Of a stretch of 64,000 bases of DNA, positions 3,105-36,250 are shown one piece after another. The notes beneath the pieces were generated by a model. The model was not told where the DNA came from, made no database searches, and worked only from the letters and a program-made list of their open reading frames with translations. Source of the DNA: Verrucomicrobiia bacterium (lineage in GTDB: Bacteria > Verrucomicrobiota > Verrucomicrobiia > Verrucomicrobiales > DEV007); the NCBI GenBank assembly GCA_030427505.1, contig JAUICH010000018.1, forward strand, positions 1 through 64,000, written 5' to 3'. Positions within the stretch are counted from its first letter, which is position 1. The number at the start of each line of letters is the position of its first letter. The translations under genes were made by a program, and so were the position numbers.

Positions 3105-4058
3105 ATGCCTGACCGAATCATCCGCGAATACCTTCTCTTCAGCAGCCGCGTCGACACGCTCTCTTTCGAAGCGGAGGTCTTTTATCGCCGTCTCATGTCA
3201 AAGGCCGATGACTACGGCCGTTACGACGGCCGACTGGCCATGCTGCGTTCCCAGCTCTTCGCGCTCCGGATCGACCAGGTGAAAGAACCCGACGTGGCCC
3301 GGTGGCTGAAGGAATGCGTGGATGCCGGGGTGATCCTCTACTACGAGGTGGACGGCGAACCCTATGTGGAGATCCAGGACTTTAACCAGCGCCTCCGCAC
3401 CGAGTCGAAATACCCCCACCCTCCGGGCAAGGAAGCGGAGGAAGCCGCCCTCTTGGAGGTGGCCCACCAGAACGCGCTGACATTTGCCCGCGAGTCGCGG
3501 TCAAATGACCGCCCTATGCGTATGCGTAAGCGTAGTACAAATTCGAAGGCGAAGACGAGAGCGAGTACGCGCCTGCCCGCGGATGACGGCGCGGATGAAG
3601 ACGGCCCTTTTGAGGCCCCGGACACGGGCTCTCCCCCAGGCTCTCACTCGAACTCTCCCACTCGATCCCCCTCCCGGTCCCGGTCTTCACCGGATTCTCA
3701 GGATGATGGACCGCCCTCGGGAGAGGGGGAACTGGGCAGCGAGGAGGACCTCCGTTCGCTGGTGGACTTCAACGCCTTCTGGGAGGCCTATCCGCGAAAG
3801 TGTCAACGCGCGGCGGCGCTCCAGGCCTGGAAAGACACCGCGGCGGACCGCCCGCCCCTGGAGGAACTGCTCAAGAGCCTCAAAACCCAGAAGCGGAGCG
3901 CGCAATGGGTCAACGACGACGGCGAGTTCATCCCGTATCCCAAGACCTGGCTGTCTCAGCACCGCTGGGCAGACCACATTGACCCTCCGCCAACGCCCTG
4001 CCGCGATTCACCGCAACTCGCGACAAAGGAGGATATTGAGAGGGCGCTGAGGTTGTAG
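3105..4058 (+). CDS. Phage-type replication (DnaD/replisome-organiser-like) protein
   Basis: The 317-residue protein begins with a winged-helix-like block (about residues 1-100: LSFEAEVFYRRLMSKADDYGRY, truncated here) resembling N-terminal domains of phage replisome organisers. Residues 145-225 are a low-complexity S/R/P-rich linker. The C-terminal block (about 230-300) has FWEAYPRK, later W(V)NDDGEFIPYPKTWLSQHRWAD, a pattern known from phage replication proteins that load helicase. The assignment rests on this pattern and is moderate. No other phage gene is recognised nearby, so it may be a prophage relic or a host-domesticated gene. The ATG at 3105 follows an AT-rich leader without a clear Shine-Dalgarno sequence. 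Confidence 0.55.
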   Translation: MPDRIIREYLLFSSRVDTLSFEAEVFYRRLMSKADDYGRYDGRLAMLRSQLFALRIDQVKEPDVARWLKECVDAGVILYYEVDGEPYVEIQDFNQRLRTESKYPHPPGKEAEEAALLEVAHQNALTFARESRSNDRPMRMRKRSTNSKAKTRASTRLPADDGADEDGPFEAPDTGSPPGSHSNSPTRSPSRSRSSPDSQDDGPPSGEGELGSEEDLRSLVDFNAFWEAYPRKCQRAAALQAWKDTAADRPPLEELLKSLKTQKRSAQWVNDDGEFIPYPKTWLSQHRWADHIDPPPTPCRDSPQLATKEDIERALRL

Positions 4059-4667: not shown

Positions 4668-4805
4668 ATGCGGTTTTTGGTCGATGCTCAATTACCGCCC
4701 GCTTTGGCAAAACTTCTGAGGGATCGAGACAGGCGACTCGATTCCTTCCAGGTAAGACAACAAGACTTCAACAGCTCACTAAACACTTCAATACTAACTT
4801 TTTAA
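4668..4805 (+). pseudogene. Truncated DUF5615 PIN-like toxin remnant
   Basis: The reading frame opens 2 bp after the DUF433 stop with MRFLVDAQLPPALAKLLRD, the characteristic N-terminus of DUF5615 PIN-like proteins including the first acidic active-site residue (D6). After about 25 residues the similarity stops and the frame ends at codon 46, whereas family members run to about 110-120 residues. No continuation of the domain is visible in the other frames to 4887, so most of the gene has been deleted rather than only frameshifted. The product should be inactive. Confidence 0.75.
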
Positions 4806-4887
4806 GTAAGCGAATTTGGAGTGCGGTGGGCAATGAGGGAGACGTTTTTGCAAATTTGCACAAACGATCACCCAGGATTCGCGCATG

Positions 4888-5154
4888 CTAACCATATACA
4901 TCCCGCCGGTGACCCACCGCAATAACCAAGACCACCAGTTCCTGGTCCTGGATCTGGCAAAGTATGCGGTAGTCTCCAACACGGTATCGCCACAGGCCCG
5001 ACAGATTGGCTTTCAACCCTTTTCCGAAGCGGCGGGGATCCTCATCGCCAGTCACCCGTTCATCAAGAAAGGCGAGGATGCTTTGCTGAGTCCCCCGGTC
5101 GAGTTTCTTCAACTCTTTTAGGGCCCGTTGGTCGAACCTATAGACCCAGCTCAC
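4888..5154 (-). CDS. relE: RelE/ParE family mRNA interferase toxin
   Basis: The 88-residue basic protein matches the RelE fold: an N-terminal helical pair (RFDQRALKELKKLDRGTQ), then the LSGLWRYRVGDYRILCQI strand block and a C-terminal VLVIAVGHRRDVYG. Residues implicated in RelE ribosome-dependent mRNA cleavage (the LWRYRVGDYR arginines and the terminal HRRDVY) are all present. It overlaps its antitoxin gene by 17 bp on the same strand, implying translational coupling. The gene appears intact, unlike the toxin genes at 4668 and 61707. Confidence 0.92.
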   Translation of the reverse strand: MSWVYRFDQRALKELKKLDRGTQQSILAFLDERVTGDEDPRRFGKGLKANLSGLWRYRVGDYRILCQIQDQELVVLVIAVGHRRDVYG

Positions 5155-5344
5155 GCTTCACTTCCCCGGCGGAATAGGACTTGGCGGGACGATTCAGGCG
5201 TTCCTCCGCCAGGTAGATGTCTTCCAGGTCTTCGAGATGGGTCAGGATGGCCTCCCGGGCATAGAAGGTCTTGGTGCGTCCGGTCTTCTTGGCCAGCGCT
5301 TCCAGGCGCTTTTCGATTTCGGGATCGAGACGGATGGCAAGCAT
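5138..5344 (-). CDS. relB: RelB/DinJ-type ribbon-helix-helix antitoxin
   Basis: The 68-residue protein starts MLAIRLDPEIEKRLEALAKK, a ribbon-helix-helix DNA-binding strand and helix, and continues into a helical C-terminus (LEDIYLAEERLN) expected to wrap the toxin. It lies directly upstream of relE with a 17-bp overlap. A perfect palindrome 17 bp upstream of the start is a likely autoregulatory operator. Proteins of this kind neutralise RelE and repress their own promoter together with it. Confidence 0.92.
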   Translation of the reverse strand: MLAIRLDPEIEKRLEALAKKTGRTKTFYAREAILTHLEDLEDIYLAEERLNRPAKSYSAGEVKRELGL

Positions 5345-5360
5345 GTCAAAAAGTTACATC

Positions 5361-5378
5361 TGCTGTACATGTACAGCA
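5361..5378. promoter_or_regulatory. Palindromic operator of relBE
   Basis: An 18-bp perfect palindrome, TGCTGTACATGTACAGCA, sits 17 bp before the relB ATG. On the minus strand it overlaps a possible -35 (TTGCTG) spaced 17 bp from a possible -10 (TAACTT, 5355-5350). A ribbon-helix-helix dimer pair binding here would block the promoter. Confidence 0.7.
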
Positions 5379-5406
5379 AGCGTCCGGATCGCCATCTTTC
5401 CACCCC

Positions 5407-6189
5407 TCACCCCCCAATCACCCTCAGCACCTCCTCCAGCAGCACCTGCGTCGTGCCCAGGCCTTCGCCGCCGTGGATGCCGGGGGTGCCTTTCCAGTCG
5501 CCGAAGTAGCCGCCGGCTTCGGGGAGGATGGCGCCGAAGGGGGCGCAGTCCCAGACCTTGAGGGCGGGATCGACCATGATTTCGACGCGGCCGGTGGCGA
5601 CGAGGAGGTAGCCATACGCGTCGCACCAGCCGGCGTTGTAATACACGGCGTCCTGAAGGCGCTGCCAGGACTCGGCTTTGCCGTAGTTCTGAAAAGTGGT
5701 GTGATCCGCGTGGGCGAGGAAGGCGCGGCTGAGGTCCGTCTGGTCTGAAACCCGGCAGGGCTGGCGGTTCCACCAGGCGCCCAGGCCGGTGGCGCCGGAG
5801 AGGATTTCGTCCAGCGCGGGGTAGCAGGCGGCTCCGACGGTGGGCACGCCCTCGATCTCCAGGCCGAGCAGCACGCCGTAGAGGGGCACGCCGCGGGTGA
5901 AGGATTTCGTGCCGTCGATGGGGTCGATGATCCAGCGGTGGGTCGCGTCTCCGGCGGCGGCTTGTTCGCCATATTCTTCGCCGATGATGGCGTGGCCGGG
6001 ATACGTTTTCTCAATGGCGGCGCGGATGTGTTCCTCGGCCCGTTTATCAGCCAGCGTGACGGGGGTATCGTCTTCCTTGTATTCGGCGGCGGCGCGCTCG
6101 GTCTGGTAGTATTCCAGGGTGATCTGCCCGGCTTCCCAGGCGGTCTGACGGGCGAAATCGAGAAAAGATTGAAGCGATTGACCTTCCAT
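5407..6189 (-). CDS. hisN: Histidinol-phosphatase / inositol monophosphatase family protein
   Basis: The 260-residue protein has the full metal-dependent phosphatase signature: GEEYGE at 70-75, DPIDGTKSF at 89-97, and WDCAPFGAILPEAGG near the C-terminus. Family members remove phosphate from histidinol phosphate, inositol phosphate or nucleotide 3'-phosphates. The length and the spacing of the GEE and DPIDGT blocks favour the HisN type, so I infer the last-but-two step of histidine synthesis, without other his genes nearby for support. The first 29 bp around its start codon are duplicated at 10332-10360. Confidence 0.75.
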   Translation of the reverse strand: MEGQSLQSFLDFARQTAWEAGQITLEYYQTERAAAEYKEDDTPVTLADKRAEEHIRAAIEKTYPGHAIIGEEYGEQAAAGDATHRWIIDPIDGTKSFTRGVPLYGVLLGLEIEGVPTVGAACYPALDEILSGATGLGAWWNRQPCRVSDQTDLSRAFLAHADHTTFQNYGKAESWQRLQDAVYYNAGWCDAYGYLLVATGRVEIMVDPALKVWDCAPFGAILPEAGGYFGDWKGTPGIHGGEGLGTTQVLLEEVLRVIGG

Positions 6190-6494
6190 GGCGGGTTCGG
6201 AATAGCAGACTAAGAATTTGGCGGCTGGGACAACGGGCTAAACGGAATGGGGCACTGAAGTCCCAAGAAGCGGTTCATTCCAACACCAATTTTTCTCGAA
6301 CTTCAAGCGGCCGGTTCCCAGTGGCTACCGGCTGGCGGAGCTGGCATGGGGGAAGGATGACGCCCCTTTGTCATTTCACCTTCCGCCTTTCGCCGAGAGA
6401 TTTCCCAAGGGTTCGCTGGATTGAGAGATGCAGCTTGCTAAGTTTATAGATTAGCCGTAGCCTGACGAATGATCTTATTTGAGAAGGGCTCTTA
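6190..6494. other. Divergent intergenic region
   Basis: This 305-bp gap separates the divergent hisN-like and glycosyltransferase genes and should hold both promoters. No convincing -35/-10 pair was singled out. At the right end a 5-bp stem, GGCTC-TTATT-GAGCC (6487-6501), encloses the TTG start codon of the glycosyltransferase. Confidence 0.6.
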
Positions 6495-22590: not shown

Positions 22591-22960
22591 CCGATGTAAG
22601 AAGCGGCGATTGAACTACATTTGCGGAGCCGCCGCAAGGAACAAGGCTCCTCTTTGCCCGGCTCCCACACTAGGCAGTGTGGACAAATTGGAGAACGGAC
22701 CGGAAATGAGGAAAAGGAAAGAGAACCCAGCGCCGCGAAGCGGCGAATATCTGGAGACGCAGCCCATTTTTCGCCTGGCTTTGTTCCCGCTCGCTCTATT
22801 GGGGATAGGCCCAATGCCGTTCGCGGCGCCTTGCCAGACAAAAAATGCTCTCGCGCCGGGCCGCCCCAAATTTGTCCACACTGCCTAGCCCCGGGACGGG
22901 GCCTCATTGCGCCACGCTTTGTCGTTGCTTTTAAACGCCGCATGCCGTGTCATTTTCGCC
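22591..22960. other. Divergent intergenic region occupied by a MITE-like element
   Basis: Most of this 370-bp gap between the cyclase and the sulfatase is taken by the 217-bp inverted-repeat element at 22671-22887. The promoters of both flanking genes must lie in the remaining short flanks or within the element. Confidence 0.8.
22671..22887. mobile_element. MITE-like element with TA-flanked terminal inverted repeats
   Basis: The element starts TAGGCAGTGTGGACAAAT and ends with the inverse, ATTTGTCCACACTGCCTA. If the outer TA on each side is a target duplication, the inverted repeat starts GGCAGTGTGG, a pattern of IS630/Tc1-type non-autonomous elements. It is 217 bp long and codes for nothing recognisable. 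Its first 139 bp recur in inverted orientation at 26838-26976 with two mismatches. Confidence 0.75.
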
Positions 22961-28401: not shown

Positions 28402-29340
28402 TCACCTCCGCTCCGCCCGGTCCTTTTCGATCAGTTCCCGAATCCATTCGGGATCGGGACAGACGGTCAGGCAGCGGTAGCCGCGCAGGTGTTTCTGTCC
28501 CAGAAACCGGAAGACCCGGAAGCTCCCTGCGCTGTTGATCCCCAGGAGCCGGCCGTGGGTGTCAGCGGCGGGACCGCCGCTGTCCCCCTGGATGAGGGGG
28601 GCACTGTGGATCACCTCTATCCACCGGGCCCCAGATGTCTTCGAGGTTTTCCAAGGGCTCCGGTCCAGGACTCTGCCGTAGGCCTGGTTCTGATTCAGGC
28701 CGCCGTAGCCGGCGATCACCACCCGGGTCCCCGGAGAAATCTCATCCGGCCGCGCCAACGGAAATTTCCACTCTGGACGAAGCTGCACATGGATCAACGC
28801 CAGGTCGGGTTCATCGGGATCGTAAATAGGTACCTTAGCAGGACTGACCCAGACCACACGGGCCCGCACCACTTCGGCTCCGTTCTCATTTCCGCAAATG
28901 ATGTAAACCGGCGACTTCTCGACGCAGTGGGCGGCGGTCAGAAAATACCCATCTTCCGTGATGGCACAGGCCGTGCCCCACCCAGAGACCCCTTTCCCCT
29001 CGGCCTCGACTTGTACCGTGATCTTTCCTTCCTCCACGTTTTTCTGGATACCGGAAAGAGTCAGGGAAACCTCTCCCTCCACCAGGGGATTGGCCCGGTT
29101 TTGCGCATACTCCCGGACGGTCTCCTTCCCAATCCGCCGGTTTCGCCAGCCCGGCTTGACCCGGTCTTTCCGCGCACTGAGCAAAGCCAGCGCCGCCGCG
29201 TTGGCCTCCTCCCCATCCGGAACGGCGCAGCCTGACAAGCTCAGGCCGAGACCCAGGCACAAAACAGCCAGCAGGACACGCGTCCCACGGTGCTCTACCG
29301 GTCCGGCTAAGGCCAGAGTCTCGCAATCGCCTGCCGCCAT
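28402..29340 (-). CDS. Trypsin-like serine protease lipoprotein (paralogue A)
   Basis: The 312-residue protein has a hydrophobic signal with lipobox LSGC (C38), a basic spacer of about 90 residues, and a chymotrypsin-fold protease domain with H138 (LTAAHC), D179 (DLALIHV) and S254 (GDSGGP). Length and active-site positions are identical to those of the neighbouring paralogue at 29460. The start at 29340 is used because it precedes the signal sequence and corresponds to the paralogue's start. It is therefore an envelope-anchored, probably active endopeptidase. It lies last in a same-strand series after two caspase-like genes and its twin. Confidence 0.88.
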   Translation of the reverse strand: MAAGDCETLALAGPVEHRGTRVLLAVLCLGLGLSLSGCAVPDGEEANAAALALLSARKDRVKPGWRNRRIGKETVREYAQNRANPLVEGEVSLTLSGIQKNVEEGKITVQVEAEGKGVSGWGTACAITEDGYFLTAAHCVEKSPVYIICGNENGAEVVRARVVWVSPAKVPIYDPDEPDLALIHVQLRPEWKFPLARPDEISPGTRVVIAGYGGLNQNQAYGRVLDRSPWKTSKTSGARWIEVIHSAPLIQGDSGGPAADTHGRLLGINSAGSFRVFRFLGQKHLRGYRCLTVCPDPEWIRELIEKDRAERR

Positions 29341-29459
29341 GAATCGGGGGTTCGACGTTTCAAGGGTAACCCGTATTCCCAAAATTCCGCCAGCCCAGAA
29401 AAGAGACCGTCCCTTCAGGCCCGTGGGTTCTGATGAAAGTAAGACTCCCGTCGCGGAGC

Positions 29460-30398
29460 TCATCGCCGCTTCGCCCGGTCTTTTTCGATCAATGCCCGAA
29501 TCCACTCGGGATCGGGACAGACGGTCAGGCAGCGGTAGCCACGCAGGTTCTCCTGGCCCAGAATCCGGACGACCCGGAAACCCACGGCGGAATTGATCCC
29601 CAGGAGACGGCCCTGGTCATCGACCGCGGGGCCGCCGCTGTCCCCCTGTATGATGGGGGCACTGTGGTCCAGCTCCATCCAGCGGGCGCCGGAGGTTTCC
29701 GAAGTCTTCCAAGGGCCCAGCCGGAGAACCTTGCCGTAGGCCTGGTTCAACTGAAGTCCACCGTAGCCGGCGGTGACGACCCGGGTGCCGGGTGAAATTT
29801 CCTCTGGCTGCGCCAGCGCAAAATTCCTCGATGGATGAAGCGGCACATGGATCAACGCCAGGTCGGGTTCATCCGAATCGTGAATGGGATCTTTCGACGG
29901 GCTAACCCAGACCAGGCGCGCCCGGAACGCCTCGGGACCCAACTCATTGCCGCCGATGATATAAACCGGGCCGGTCTTCACACAGTGGGCCGCGGTCAGG
30001 AAATAGCCGTCTTCCGTGACGGCACTGGCCGTGCCGGCCCCCCACTCGGCTTCCCCCTCTCCCTCGATGCGGACCCGCCCCGTGGCCGTGCCATCGGCCA
30101 GGTTCACGTGGACGTCGGAAAAGGTCATGGACACCTCCCCCGCCACCAGAGCGGCGGTCCGGTTTTCCGCATACTCGCGGGCCGTCTCTTTACCGATGCG
30201 CCGGCTTCCCCAATCCGGCTTGGCTTGGTCTTTCCGTGAACTGAGCAGAGTCAGCGCCGCCAGATTGGCCTCCTCCACGGTCGGAACCGTGCAGGCCTGT
30301 AAGCCCAGACACAGGCACAAAGCGGCGAGCAAGGCTTTCGCCCCACGGCGCCAAACCGGCCCGGCCAAGGCCGGAGTCTCGCAATCGCTAACAACCAT
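29460..30398 (-). CDS. Trypsin-like serine protease lipoprotein (paralogue B)
   Basis: The 312-residue protein has lipobox LQAC (C36) after a hydrophobic stretch and a serine protease domain with H138 (LTAAHC), D179 (DLALIHV) and S254 (GDSGGP). The C-terminal RGYRCLTVCPDPEWIR segment, with a cysteine pair, is shared exactly with paralogue A. The twins also share a conserved stretch about 50 bp upstream of the start, so the duplication included regulatory DNA. It starts 108 bp after the caspase-like gene at 30507 on the same strand. Confidence 0.88.
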   Translation of the reverse strand: MVVSDCETPALAGPVWRRGAKALLAALCLCLGLQACTVPTVEEANLAALTLLSSRKDQAKPDWGSRRIGKETAREYAENRTAALVAGEVSMTFSDVHVNLADGTATGRVRIEGEGEAEWGAGTASAVTEDGYFLTAAHCVKTGPVYIIGGNELGPEAFRARLVWVSPSKDPIHDSDEPDLALIHVPLHPSRNFALAQPEEISPGTRVVTAGYGGLQLNQAYGKVLRLGPWKTSETSGARWMELDHSAPIIQGDSGGPAVDDQGRLLGINSAVGFRVVRILGQENLRGYRCLTVCPDPEWIRALIEKDRAKRR

Positions 30399-30483
30399 GA
30401 ATCGTGGGGTCACCGCGTCTCCGGTGACTTGGAACCCACGATACCCTGAAAATTCCGCCAGCGCAGAAGAGATGTCCTCCATC

Positions 30484-30494
30484 TAGGCAGTGTG
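30484..30494. repeat. Solo MITE end remnant
   Basis: TAGGCAGTGTG is identical to the first 11 bp of the element at 22671, including the TA. The following bases do not match, so this is either an eroded end or chance similarity. It lies between the caspase-like gene and the protease upstream region. Confidence 0.4.
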
Positions 30495-30506
30495 ATTTCG
30501 CGGCGA

Positions 30507-32198
30507 CTATTCCGGCTGATAGCTGATGGCTACGCGAAAACCAATGTTATACAGGATGAAATCCGGTGTGTTCTTGCTGCGGTTTGCCGACCGGCAATAC
30601 CGTGCGCTGATGTACCAGCTGCCGCCACGGAACACCTTTCTCTCGCCGGAATCCGGCCCCACCGGGTCCTTCACGCTCCAGCTGGGATAATCGTCAAACC
30701 AGTCCAGGGTCCATTCGCAGACGTTTCCGTGCATGTCGTACAGCCCCCAGGGGTTCGCCGGGTAGCTCCCCACCGCTGAAGTCTTCCGCAAATAGGGGCT
30801 GTCCGCGCCACGGCTTTGGCTGTAATCCCCGTCGAAGTTGGCGAGCTTGCTGTTCAAACTGGAACCAAAAGAGAAGGGCGTCACCGTTCCGGCCCTGCAG
30901 GCATACTCCCACTGGGCCTCGGTGGGAAGAGTGGCTTTCCATCCCGGAGGCAGACCCAGCTGCTTTCCCCATTTCTCGCAGTAGGCCACGGCGTCATTCC
31001 AGCTCACCTTTTCCACGGGCAGGTTGTCCGAGCCGGAAAAATTGCTGGGAGAGGCGCCCGTGATCTCCCGGTACTGTCCTTGGGTGCATTCCTTCCGGGC
31101 CAGCCAGAAGCCCTGCGTCAAGACCACGCGGTGTTCCTGCTCGTCATCGTCCCGGTCCACTTCGTCCGCGGAGCTTCCCATCATGAACTCGCCGGGCGGA
31201 CACCACACCATCTCCGTCCCGCCAAAGTTCCGGATTTCTCCCGCCCGCTGACCTTCCAGGGGGTTCCGGGGCCGCGCCGGCATGTCCGCTGGCGAAGCGG
31301 GCGCTCCCGGCGTGGCCGCTGGCGAAGGGGTCGCTCCCGGCGTGGTCGCCATCACTTCCGGCCGTGAGTTCGAAACCGGGGTCACCGCCCCATCGCTTAG
31401 GGTAAAGAGGCGAAAAGTCCGGCCCGCTCCGTCGAACTTGATCCACGGCACCTGCCGTTCGCCAGTGGTTCTGGCTACTTCGTCACTCACACCCAGGAAA
31501 GCATCGAACGCGCTGACACCCGGCTGTGCCAGATGCCTGACCAGAGCGGTCGTGAATGGGCTGTTCCCGCCCGTGCCGTCCAGCGCCACCTGGCCCGGGG
31601 CACTGGCGTACATGATCATCGTCGCCTCGGGCACCGCCGCGTCGGGCAGCGCTATCAGTCCTCCGGACGTGCTGCTCCGCGTGGCCATCCAGCTCCGGGT
31701 GAGCGGATTGTCCCGGCAGCAGTCCAGGACCACCATCTTGGCGGGTAGCCGGGCCGCCTTCATGTCCGTCAGGACGGCGTCCAGAGAGATGGTCTGACTC
31801 CGCAACTGCGCGGAAGTGTCCAGCACCGCGTCCACCGGCAAGAGGTAGTTCTTTCCGTCCACCTCCATGCCGTGCCCGGCATAGTAAAACAGGCCCACCT
31901 TCGCGCCCGCCGCCACTCGTTTGAAACGCTCCAGCCCTTCATACATGGCGTCGACTCCCCCATCCTCCACGGAGACCACTTCGAACCCGGCGCCGCGAAG
32001 CAACTTCGCCACCGCCGCCGCGTCGCGCGTGGGGTTCGCCAGCCGTTTGGCGTTCTGGTAGGCCCCATTCCCGATGACCAGAGCCACGCGCTCCGCCCCC
32101 TCGGCGGCCAGGGGCAGCCAGGCGGCGAACGCCATCCAAAAACCAAAGAGAAGACCTCTCGTGCAAAGGTGAGAACAAAAGACTGAAAAGTGACGCAT
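30507..32198 (-). CDS. Exported caspase-like (C14) peptidase with SUMF1-type domain (A)
   Basis: The 563-residue protein has a signal peptide (1-35), a caspase-fold domain (36-265) and a SUMF1/FGE-type domain (320-560). The catalytic pair is present: H109 in YYAGHG and C161 in LDCCRDNP, as in bacterial orthocaspases. A proline/alanine-rich linker (270-310) joins the domains. In the C-terminal domain only one cysteine (RYC) is found where formylglycine-generating enzymes need two, so it is probably a binding module, not an FGE. The protein follows its paralogue at 32239 by 40 bp and precedes two trypsin-like lipoproteins. Confidence 0.9.
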   Translation of the reverse strand: MRHFSVFCSHLCTRGLLFGFWMAFAAWLPLAAEGAERVALVIGNGAYQNAKRLANPTRDAAAVAKLLRGAGFEVVSVEDGGVDAMYEGLERFKRVAAGAKVGLFYYAGHGMEVDGKNYLLPVDAVLDTSAQLRSQTISLDAVLTDMKAARLPAKMVVLDCCRDNPLTRSWMATRSSTSGGLIALPDAAVPEATMIMYASAPGQVALDGTGGNSPFTTALVRHLAQPGVSAFDAFLGVSDEVARTTGERQVPWIKFDGAGRTFRLFTLSDGAVTPVSNSRPEVMATTPGATPSPAATPGAPASPADMPARPRNPLEGQRAGEIRNFGGTEMVWCPPGEFMMGSSADEVDRDDDEQEHRVVLTQGFWLARKECTQGQYREITGASPSNFSGSDNLPVEKVSWNDAVAYCEKWGKQLGLPPGWKATLPTEAQWEYACRAGTVTPFSFGSSLNSKLANFDGDYSQSRGADSPYLRKTSAVGSYPANPWGLYDMHGNVCEWTLDWFDDYPSWSVKDPVGPDSGERKVFRGGSWYISARYCRSANRSKNTPDFILYNIGFRVAISYQPE

Positions 32199-32238
32199 GA
32201 CGATGACAGGTTTCTCGTTTCGTGATTGGGAAAGCCCC

Positions 32239-34065
32239 TCACTTCACGGAAGGACTCAGTGCCACCCGGAACCCCCAGTTCCGGATGCGAATGGTGGGCT
32301 GGGTAAAGTCCCGCAGCGCGGAACGGCAGAGGTAGGCTTGATTCTCCCAGCTCCCTCCGCGCGCCACGCGAAGCGTTCCCGTCCCCACTCCCTTGGGGTC
32401 TACGGCATAACCCTGCGGATAGTCACCATACCAGTCCTGACACCACTCAAACATATTCCCGATCATGTCATACAGGCCCCAGTCATTCGGCGCCTTCTGG
32501 CCTACCTCCCGCGGCCCCGCTCTCCCTCCCGGGTACTGCTTCTCCGCCCAGTCGTCCGTACTCCATCCCCGCCCTTCATAGTCCACGCTGCTGTTGCCGC
32601 CGTACCAGGCAATCTCGTCCAGCTCCGGGCCGTTCTTATCTCCCTTGATGGTCAGCGCTCCGGTGTACAGCGTGGTGCTGGTTCCCGCGCGGCATGCGTA
32701 TTCCCACTCGGCTTCCGTGGGCAGGCGGTATTCCCAATTCTCCGGCAGTTTTCCGGCGCGGCGTTCGCGCTCCGTGAGTTCCCGGCAAAACTCCGTCGCT
32801 TCTTCCCAGTTCACCAGGTAGATCGGAATGTTGCCCCCTTCCGTGCCGATCGCCACCGTGGGATCCGCGTCTTTTTTCTGGTTGTTGAACTCCCGCAAGG
32901 TGGCCGGATCTCCGGGCAGACAAGTGTAAACGGTGTCATCCTCCAACATCAACCGTGCCTGGTCGCGCAGGCTCCGGCCCATGACCGCTTCCCACTCGCC
33001 CTGCGTCACCTCATACTGCCCTAACCAGAAACCTTGGGACAGCGACACTTTGTGACGCACTTCGTCGTCAAACCGGCCTTTCTCGGTTTCCGGGCTCCCC
33101 ATCCAGAACTCACCCGCGGGGCACCAGCGCAGTTTCATGCCCAGGGCATTTCGCATGCTGTCGCCCGCGAGTTTTCCTTCCATGGCATCTCCAGGTTGAG
33201 AGGGAGGTTCCACCATGACTTCCGGCCGGGTGCTCGAACCGGAGGAAGAACCCGTTCCTTCCCGCCCCAAGGCAAAGAGACGGAAGGTCCGGCCCGCTCC
33301 GTCGAATTTGATCCACGGCACCTGCCGCTCGCCCGTGGACTTCGCCACGGCATCGCTTACGCCCAGAAAGGCGTCAAAGGCACTCACCCCCGGCTCCGCC
33401 AGGTGTTTGACCAGCGCCGCCGTGAACGGACTGTTTCCGCCCGTCCCGTCCAGCGCCACCTGACCGGGCGCGCTGGCGTACATGATCATCGTCGCCTCGG
33501 GAATGGATGCGTCCGGCACCGCGATCAGCCCCCCGGCCACGTTGCTCCGCGTGGCCATCCAGCTTCGGGTCAGCGGATTGTCCCGGCAGCAGTCCAGGAT
33601 GACCAGCTTGGCAGGCAGCCGCACCGCTTTCATGTCGTTCAACACCGTGTCCAGAGACACCGTCTGGGTGCGCAACTGCACCGGAGACTCCAGCACGGCG
33701 TCCACGGGAAGAAGAAAGTTCTTCCCGTCCACCTCCATGCCGTGGCCCGCGTAGTAGAAAAGTCCGACCCGGGCGCCCGCCGCGGCCTTTTTGAACTTCT
33801 CCATCCCCAAATACATTTCCTCCACCCCGGCGTCTTCCACGGTGACCACTTCGAACCCAGCGTCCCGGAGCAACTTCGACACCGCCGCCGCGTCACGCGT
33901 GGGGTTCGCCAGGGGCTTGGCGTGCTGATAGCCGCCATTTCCAATGACCAGGGCCACGCGCTCCGCAGCCTGAACCCCCGCCATGCCAGCGGTCCAGACC
34001 GTGAAGAGCGCCACCAGGTAGATCCACGGCCAGAGCCTGAAGTTTGTCCAAGTCAGTCTGTTCAT
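32239..34065 (-). CDS. Exported caspase-like (C14) peptidase with SUMF1-type domain (B)
   Basis: The 608-residue protein parallels the downstream paralogue: a signal peptide (1-34), a caspase domain with H108 (YYAGHG) and C160 (LDCCRDNP), a short linker and a SUMF1-type domain (about 305-605). GGAGGG lies 7-8 bp before the ATG at 34065, which decides that start over an earlier ATG at 34098. The SUMF1 block has RGGSWENQAYLC, with one cysteine only, again unlike true formylglycine-generating enzymes. It has an extra loop of about 60 residues rich in D and K relative to copy A. It heads the caspase/trypsin series. Confidence 0.9.
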   Translation of the reverse strand: MNRLTWTNFRLWPWIYLVALFTVWTAGMAGVQAAERVALVIGNGGYQHAKPLANPTRDAAAVSKLLRDAGFEVVTVEDAGVEEMYLGMEKFKKAAAGARVGLFYYAGHGMEVDGKNFLLPVDAVLESPVQLRTQTVSLDTVLNDMKAVRLPAKLVILDCCRDNPLTRSWMATRSNVAGGLIAVPDASIPEATMIMYASAPGQVALDGTGGNSPFTAALVKHLAEPGVSAFDAFLGVSDAVAKSTGERQVPWIKFDGAGRTFRLFALGREGTGSSSGSSTRPEVMVEPPSQPGDAMEGKLAGDSMRNALGMKLRWCPAGEFWMGSPETEKGRFDDEVRHKVSLSQGFWLGQYEVTQGEWEAVMGRSLRDQARLMLEDDTVYTCLPGDPATLREFNNQKKDADPTVAIGTEGGNIPIYLVNWEEATEFCRELTERERRAGKLPENWEYRLPTEAEWEYACRAGTSTTLYTGALTIKGDKNGPELDEIAWYGGNSSVDYEGRGWSTDDWAEKQYPGGRAGPREVGQKAPNDWGLYDMIGNMFEWCQDWYGDYPQGYAVDPKGVGTGTLRVARGGSWENQAYLCRSALRDFTQPTIRIRNWGFRVALSPSVK

Positions 34066-34247
34066 TTCATTCCCTCCCACTTTCGAATCGAACCCCACTC
34101 TTTTAATTCATGCAGCCAGGGTCAATAAACACAAAAAAGAAGAGATCCTCGCCGGATCACAACAGCCGGTGAAGGAAGCCAACCCAGAGGACCGGGCACG
34201 AAGGGGCGGACTCTCCCCTGCCCCAAGGGAACCGGTTCGCGGACCCG

Positions 34248-36167
34248 CTACACTTCCAGGGCCGCGATCTCCCGGTTGGCTTTCCGGAGCCGGGCGGCAA
34301 ACATCATGGCGAGGTTTTCGAGAAGCTTGATCTTCAGCTTGGGGTGATTGTCCCCCAGCGAATCGAAGTCTTCAGGAGAAATGATCCAGCAGCGGGTCTT
34401 TTCGTCCGCGGCCACCAGCGCGGAACGCGGGGCCCGGTCCAGCACCGCCAGTTCGCCGAAGGCCATGCCCGGCGTGAAGGTGGCGAGCCGCCGGTCTTTC
34501 CCCGTGTCCGCCACGCCAATCAGGGCCGAGGCCCGGCCTTCGATGACCACGTAAATACCGTCCGCCGGATCTCCCACGTCCACAATGACACTGCCCTTTT
34601 CGTAGGTCCGCTCCTGGAGCATGGGATTGAGGATCGACAGGTCGGAGTCGTTCAGGCCGTTGAAAAGCTCGCTCTGGTCCAGCATGGCCAGGGTTTCATC
34701 GATGCGGGCCAGCGAGTCATGCCCTTTCTGGCTGCCTCCATCCGCTCCTAATCCTTCCTCATCCGGGAGGCTCTCCAGCAAGAGATCCTCGCAAGCCTCA
34801 AGCGCCCAATCCACACTGTCGAAGGCCAGGGTACGGGCGGAAGCCTCCGCTCCCGCCACACTCTTCAGGATTCGCCGCAGCAGCGTCAGGTTCTCGGTCT
34901 CCACCAGGAAGACTTCCACTTTCTGATCCACCAGCCGTTTGACCAGTTCCGACAGCATCCAGCAGGCGGGTTCGTCCGCTTTGACGACTTGCTTGCAGTC
35001 GATAATGAAGAAATCGGATTCTCCAATGCCATTCCGGATCTCCCGGAGCACCACCTCAATCGCGGCGAAGTCGAGTTCCCCCTGAAGGTAGTAAATGGCG
35101 GTCTTCTTGCCCAGGCCGCGAAGGACCAGCTCTTCCCGCGACGACCGGCGGCAATTGGATTGAATCTGGGAACCGTGCAGTTTCCGCCGGATGACCGGGG
35201 CCTGAACGTTGAGCACATTGAACATGTGCAGGTCGAAGTGGCGGGACAGTTCCTGGCATACCTTGATGCCGCGCACGCTGTTACCCCGGGGGTCGAGCCG
35301 GGGCGAAAAGACCGCCACCCCCAACTTGCCTGGCAACACCGCCACGATGCCGCCCGCCACGCCGCTTTTTGCCGGCATGCCCACTTTGTAAACCCACTCC
35401 CCGGCATAGTCGTACATGCCGCAGGAACTCATGACACCCAGGATGTTGGGAATGTAGTCACTGACCACGGCGCGGGTGCGCGTCACGGGATTGACGCCGC
35501 CGTTCGCCACCGTGGCGGCCATCATGCCCAGGTCCCGGCAGTCCACCAGGATGGAGCACTGGCGAAAGTAGGCATCCAGAGACTCCAGGGCTTCGTCTCC
35601 CAGGATGTCAAAATTTCTCAGCATGTAGGTAATGGCCCGGTTGCGGTGCCCCGTCAGGCTTTCCGACCGGAAAACCTCTTCGTCCACCTTCATGGGCCGG
35701 CCCACGTACCGGGAAAAGGCATCGAGAATCCGGTGAATCTTTTCCTGCGACGTTTTGCCCGCGACCAGGCCGGTGGCGGCAATGGCCCCCGCGTTGATCA
35801 TGGGGTTGGCCGGCTGACCGGTAACGGGGTCCAGGCTGATGGAGTTGAACGCGTCCCCAGTGGGCTCGACGCCAATCTTCTCCAACACGGCATCCCGGCC
35901 ATTGTCTTCCAGCGCCACTCCATAGGTAAAAGGCTTGGAGATGGACTGGATCGTAAAACTCTGACGGGTATCCCCCACCTCGTAAACCTCTCCACTGGTG
36001 GTGACCAGACTGATGCCGAACCAGTCGGGATTGGCCTTGGCCAATTCGGGAATGTAGGTAGCCACTTCGCCCTCGTGACAGTCCGCGAACTGGTCATGGA
36101 GACGCTTCAAGTAGTCCCGGATCGGACAGGGAATCGACACTGGAGGGGCTTCGGCTAAAGTCGTCAT
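34248..36167 (-). CDS. glsA: Glutaminase-STAS-cyclic-nucleotide-binding fusion
   Basis: The 639-residue cytoplasmic protein starts with a complete glutaminase domain (about 10-320) of the serine-dependent beta-lactamase fold: the SxxK motif S75-I-S-K78 in QSISKPFTYG, NPMINAGAIA, and the KSGVAGGIVAVLPGKLGVAVFSP region (shortened) near its end. It is followed by a STAS domain (about 350-460: YYLQGELDFAAIEVV ... DEPACWMLSELVKRLVDQ) and a cNMP-binding domain (about 495-625: PADGIYVVIEGRA, PGMAFGELAVLDRAPRSA). It should hydrolyse glutamine to glutamate and ammonia under control of a cyclic nucleotide. The ATG at 36167 is the first ATG in frame. Confidence 0.9.
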   Translation of the reverse strand: MTTLAEAPPVSIPCPIRDYLKRLHDQFADCHEGEVATYIPELAKANPDWFGISLVTTSGEVYEVGDTRQSFTIQSISKPFTYGVALEDNGRDAVLEKIGVEPTGDAFNSISLDPVTGQPANPMINAGAIAATGLVAGKTSQEKIHRILDAFSRYVGRPMKVDEEVFRSESLTGHRNRAITYMLRNFDILGDEALESLDAYFRQCSILVDCRDLGMMAATVANGGVNPVTRTRAVVSDYIPNILGVMSSCGMYDYAGEWVYKVGMPAKSGVAGGIVAVLPGKLGVAVFSPRLDPRGNSVRGIKVCQELSRHFDLHMFNVLNVQAPVIRRKLHGSQIQSNCRRSSREELVLRGLGKKTAIYYLQGELDFAAIEVVLREIRNGIGESDFFIIDCKQVVKADEPACWMLSELVKRLVDQKVEVFLVETENLTLLRRILKSVAGAEASARTLAFDSVDWALEACEDLLLESLPDEEGLGADGGSQKGHDSLARIDETLAMLDQSELFNGLNDSDLSILNPMLQERTYEKGSVIVDVGDPADGIYVVIEGRASALIGVADTGKDRRLATFTPGMAFGELAVLDRAPRSALVAADEKTRCWIISPEDFDSLGDNHPKLKIKLLENLAMMFAARLRKANREIAALEV

Positions 36168-36250
36168 TGGTTGGCGCAAAGGAAGTCGCGAGGTCCGCAA
36201 GACTCATACCAAACTTCTGCCGAAACAATGACTTTGAATTACTTGACAGT

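Follow-up and report, generated by a model that had tools for sequence, protein, structure and literature searches.

A tandem pair of putatively exported caspase–FGE-fold proteins adjoins two HtrA-like lipoproteins in a Verrucomicrobiales genome

The window analysed here is a 64,000-nucleotide stretch of contig JAUICH010000018.1 (assembly GCA_030427505.1) from a bacterium of the class Verrucomicrobiia. On its minus strand lies a run of four genes, which we designated A, B, T1 and T2 in the order of reading. Gene A (32239–34065) and its tandem duplicate B (30507–32198) each encode an apparently exported caspase fused to a SUMF1/FGE-fold domain; gene T1 (29460–30482) and its tandem duplicate T2 (28402–29505; 68% identity to T1) encode predicted lipoproteins with an HtrA-like Trypsin_2 protease domain. 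A previous reading of this DNA from its letters alone (the sequence-only reading) had described four same-strand genes forming two tandem duplications, and the positions, order and minus strand were all verified. The open reading frame (ORF) of A is open to a GTG at 34098, but the ATG at 34065, which has GGAGG upstream, is the likelier start. A and B are separated by 40 bp, and B and T1 by 24 bp; T1 and T2 share an ATGA overlap if T2 starts at the ATG at 29463, and later internal starts are possible for both. As judged by the sequence, this gap pattern is an operon-like layout.

The caspase parts of A and B matched Pfam Peptidase_C14 with E values of 2e-37 and 6e-37, respectively. The domain of A (33304–33960) carries His119 and Cys171 in the 619-amino-acid ORF, and that of B (31434–32090) carries His109 and Cys161. 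Both His/Cys dyads, in the motifs YYAGHG and LDCCRDNP, are intact, as the sequence-only reading had stated. The nearest solved relatives of the caspase domain were MALT1 structures, both by sequence and by the fold of the B model. Three acidic positions (D26, D126 and D174 in the numbering of the B domain) were invariant in 32 of 32 C14 domains; D26 and D126 were matched to MALT1 by alignment, and D174 was assigned by motif only. The residues that line the Arg-selecting pocket of MALT1 are D365, D462 and E500. The S1 pocket of A and B is thus predicted to be MALT1-like, with Arg or Lys preferred at P1, which agrees with the orthocaspase preference proposed earlier. MALT1 carries death and Ig domains, whereas A and B appear to be exported and have an FGE-fold domain fused instead.

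This second domain lies at 32260–33123 in A and at 30528–31217 in B (Pfam FGE-sulfatase, E 1e-45 and 7e-50), and a disordered linker separates it from the caspase domain in the B model. The residue equivalent to Cys336 of human FGE is Asn in A and Ile in B, and the catalytic, copper-binding Cys336/Cys341 pair is missing; both cysteines are retained in a genuine FGE encoded on contig C4 of this genome (L186). The model of the B domain resembles PvdO and FGE and also matches Treponema TvpA, a protein of a diversity-generating retroelement (DGR). Because the catalytic cysteines are absent and the model is TvpA-like, binding is more likely than catalysis, and we regard the domain as a putative module of the C-type lectin fold. 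The SUMF1 label given by the sequence-only reading therefore holds for the fold but not for the enzyme. A role of the domain as activator of a sulfatase, such as the product of the sulfatase-like gene at 22907, was rejected on account of the missing cysteine pair.

A hydrophobic leader ends just ahead of the C14 domain in both A and B, as judged by inspection. The genome containing the window (6.4 Mb in 56 contigs, ~96% complete) gave 25 FGE matches and 21 C14 matches, the latter in ~20 genes that form several clusters, with tandem caspase clusters on contigs C9, C21, C33 and C50. The C-terminal parts of its other caspases were Sel1, YARHG or DUF4384 domains, or none. By inspection, an apparent leader was present in 20 of 20 caspase proteins of this genome. 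C14 matches occurred in 39 of the 96 genomes searched (this genome and its relatives), and under a hydropathy rule ~61 of the 72 caspase ORFs of the relatives had leader-like N-termini; the relatives' contigs with names were from Verrucomicrobiota, mostly Verrucomicrobiales. Export of all four proteins, as claimed before, was upheld by the leaders of A and B and the lipoboxes of T1 and T2 (inspection and hydropathy). By these leader calls, however, the export that had been singled out as a special feature is the norm for caspases here. One cluster of the window's own genome (G000:C50:266056–284592; L047/L048) holds seven exported caspase genes in ~19 kb, with FGE, YARHG, DUF4384 and TPR-like C-terminal parts.

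T1 and T2 matched Pfam Trypsin_2 (E 1e-16 and 3e-16). The serine-protease triads reported by the sequence-only reading are intact: H166, D207 and S282 (T1 numbering) were invariant in T1, T2 and 12 relatives. A lipobox of the form L-x-[AG]-C follows a hydrophobic stretch in each protein, LQAC in T1 (Cys codon 30291–30293) and LSGC in T2 (Cys codon 29227–29229), predicting lipidation; its Cys was kept in 13 of the 14 family members. The family alignment showed only 28–36% identity to the relatives. A model of T1 (mean pLDDT 85) had Deg, HtrA and DegS as its best fold matches in the PDB. T1 shares the fold, the catalytic triad and the envelope location with HtrA, DegS, DegP and the HTRA1 protease domain, whereas T1 and T2 are predicted to be lipid-anchored, have their own N-terminal segment and gave no Pfam match for a PDZ domain; the T1 model ends with the protease domain and one helix. 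In one relative, a T1/T2-type protease is fused to a C-terminal FGE-fold domain (L032, G050:C11, 7388–9250; 620 amino acids), with a membrane anchor in place of the lipobox. Judged from its domain make-up, this fusion is an independent link between the protease and FGE-fold modules.

The C14 parts of A and B were 83% identical (dN/dS 0.11, dS 0.86), and the protease parts of T1 and T2 were 75% identical (dN/dS 0.24), in accordance with tandem duplication; the duplicated copies are under purifying selection. The FGE parts of A and B were only 44% identical, with saturated synonymous sites. In a domain comparison with low branch support, the lectin-fold domains of A and B were closest to FGE proteins encoded on contig C7 (45–47%), and less close to the FGE domains of other caspases. 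The caspase paralogue nearest to A and B, encoded on contig C50 (67%), lacks an FGE domain. Because the C14 part is conserved, the FGE part has diverged and the nearest relatives of the two differ, the protease and recognition parts appear to have separate histories, consistent with swapping of recognition modules.

Within this genome, the T1/T2-type protease is paired only in the window, and the next best match is distant (30%). Orthologues were found in 12 relatives (64–138 bits). No caspase lay near any of their 14 loci, nor near any of 67 named loci of the family in a scan of 84,980 species; the two sets (81 loci in total) overlap, and many of the contigs are short. Conversely, no T1/T2-type protease was found in 60 caspase loci of the relatives or in nine other regions of the window's genome; five bare GDSGG motif matches in caspase regions were discounted for want of support from the protease profile. 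One relative (G023, ~90% complete) has two T1/T2 orthologues and zero C14 genes. A conserved A-B-T1-T2 order was thus rejected, with no instance found from either side. Every other genome checked kept the pairs apart, so that their association here seems to be local and not that of a fixed defence module. The sequence-only reading had suggested a cascade or a surface processing or defence module, noting that caspase and trypsin domains co-occur in bacterial conflict and programmed-death loci. A conserved four-protease cascade was not borne out: the pairs occur independently, an outcome which that reading had itself named as refuting its proposal. As regards caspase/trypsin/gasdermin defence systems, no conserved co-localisation with an effector partner was seen, and the PADLOC matches were weak, generic and at the domain level only, giving no support for a known defence system.

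The two pairs might accordingly be unrelated neighbours, each duplicated locally and sharing no pathway. Their separation across all of these loci (81, 60 and 9, the first from overlapping sets) fits that view, as does the frequency of tandem caspase clusters in this genome. However, the four genes share a strand, B and T1 are only 24 bp apart, all four products appear to be exported, and the protease–FGE fusion of G050 joins the same two modules in one protein. The chance that a given gene adjoins one of the ~11 caspase loci is ~0.4%, a value to be read in the light of the pairing having been chosen post hoc. We consider it possible but rather unlikely that the pairs are unrelated neighbours.

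The earlier proposal of a zymogen cascade would have the caspases cut the basic spacer of T1 and T2, or the lipoproteins cut the caspases, in a surface defence or processing module. The predicted Arg/Lys preference of A and B and the Arg/Lys-rich spacer that precedes the protease domain of T1 and T2 would suit such a cascade, and caspase cleavage activates a partner enzyme in a published cytoplasmic defence pathway (PMC12799240). The spacer, however, is part of the conserved N-terminal segment of the whole T1/T2 family, present in members without a caspase neighbour and in a genome without any caspase. It was therefore rejected as a caspase-specific site and is no particular evidence of caspase cleavage. 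In addition, Asp189 is absent from 14 of 14 family members, with Pro, Glu or Ala at the position placed by spacing from Ser195. An HtrA-like fold does not need N-terminal clipping. Given this modelled fold and the missing Asp189, nothing points to a zymogen cascade of the trypsin type, and with no conserved linkage of the pairs we consider a cascade improbable.

Sister genes in related genomes showed what the lectin-fold domain may do. Exported caspase–FGE genes of G079 and G038 are DGR targets. In G079, a complete DGR (L151, G079:C59, 1906–8427) has two such genes flanking bAvd (4697–5050), a reverse transcriptase (RT; 5067–6056) and the template repeat (TR; 6246–6385). The differences between variable region (VR) and TR fell at template adenines in 17 of 17 and 18 of 18 cases (hypergeometric P 4e-14 and 4e-15). 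In G038 (L171, G038:C102, 4660–8208), an HRDC-type accessory gene, an RT with the motif LPIGSLVSQ and a TR lie behind an exported caspase–FGE gene, and 19 of 23 VR differences were at template adenines (P 1e-12). Targeting of these genes fits the FGE-fold domain being a binding domain. Two further loci lacked a detectable template: in G032 (L147, G032:C7, 5112–12894) an RT and bAvd stand beside three exported caspases, and in G044 (L153, G044:C94, 931–3347) a contig-end fragment carries a caspase–FGE gene, an HRDC accessory gene and the start of an RT.

The C-terminal segments of A (32266–32358) and B (30534–30626) correspond in place to the variable region of these DGR-target relatives. No template for either gene turned up when the whole assembly was searched with tolerance for adenine changes; no DGR-type RT was found in it, and its two RTs carry the non-DGR motif QGAPTSP. 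A and B were therefore not regarded as DGR targets, and the best reading is that they are non-diversified members of an exported family of caspases that may be gated by ligands. That they form an actively mutating sensor–protease unit whose RT and template were lost in an assembly gap is very improbable in view of these searches and of an assembly that is ~96% complete, even though their architecture is that of the targeted caspases of G079 and G038 and the genome holds a template copy on contig C7 and a degraded-looking one on contig C33.

The copy on C33 (L042, G000:C33, 12970–13110) is adenine-rich and template-like and lies behind two tandem exported caspase–FGE genes. No RT was found at this locus, and the contig ends ~400 bp past the copy. 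A perfect template for the C33 caspases was rejected, as the differences are adenine-biased and yet include other mismatches; the copy may be decayed, or its target may lie beyond the assembled contigs. At the C7 locus (L179, G000:C7, 2411–11510), three variable FGE genes that lack leaders stand in tandem, together with a template copy (near 3429–3510), an nSTAND1-WD40-FGE gene and a DGR accessory gene of the HRDC type that is truncated; this is likely a cytoplasmic DGR conflict locus.

The reading that we prefer, and that we hold to be about evenly balanced between right and wrong, is that A and B are exported MALT1-like caspases with a ligand-binding FGE-fold domain, and that T1 and T2 are HtrA-like lipoproteins captured locally into one operon with them. 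A surface or extracellular ligand would be bound by the lectin-fold domain, which would cluster A and B and activate the caspase by proximity; the activated proteins might then cut envelope or extracellular substrates. The T1/T2 family usually stands alone in Verrucomicrobiota, and a duplicated copy would have been captured downstream of the caspases, with which it is probably co-transcribed. Several points weigh against this proposal. We infer ligand binding, co-transcription and a functional link between the pairs, and proximity activation is proposed by likeness to other caspases. The leaders and lipoboxes were called by inspection and hydropathy, not by SignalP. The stability of the gene order was judged on genomes from beyond the genus.

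A broader and more tentative version, which we think doubtful but worth stating, is that the exported caspases of Verrucomicrobiota, with a lectin-fold part that is retroelement-diversified in some members, combine an antibody-like envelope sensor with a death-type protease. The operon in the window would then be a fixed member that recruited HtrA-like lipoproteins as co-effectors or regulators.

Proteins with a metacaspase or orthocaspase domain followed by an FGE-sulfatase domain are already known, as are multi-caspase operons in other phyla (PMC3501461). A and B have the same domain order, and several paralogues per genome occur in both cases; the caspases described here differ in that all appear to be exported. 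The family is also large here, in an order of Verrucomicrobiota to which a metagenome survey ascribed few metacaspases (PMC4933709). Cyanobacterial DGR variable proteins with an orthocaspase N-terminus have been described, most of them predicted to be cytosolic (PMC7517822), and multicellular bacteria have DGR-diversified antigen sensors (PMC10907252) that adjoin trypsin-like and caspase-like effectors (PMC10907252; PMC7159879). The combination of a peptidase with a C-type lectin domain of the FGE subtype is shared with those proteins, and relatives of A and B likewise have VR, TR, RT and Avd; A and B themselves differ in having no template, in apparent export and in the lack of a STAND, MoxR or vWA partner. 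In a global survey, a leader or membrane segment was present in most clusters of cellular DGR targets (PMC8144416). A limited literature search yielded no published account, for Verrucomicrobiota, of caspases that are both exported and diversified by DGRs.

Discussion of bacterial caspases and of sensors diversified by DGRs has mostly treated them as components of cytoplasmic defence. A lineage in which caspases appear to be routinely exported, in up to ~20 copies, and in which some relatives diversify the putative binding domain by a retroelement, makes extracytoplasmic caspase function directly testable. It raises the questions of which ligand and which substrate are involved, and whether the proteins serve defence, self/non-self recognition or feeding. 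The exported caspase–lectin family is of wider interest, and the four-gene set, a local arrangement, matters less. Directly upstream of A, on the same strand, lies a gene for a fusion of glutaminase, STAS and cyclic-nucleotide-binding domains (34248–36200).

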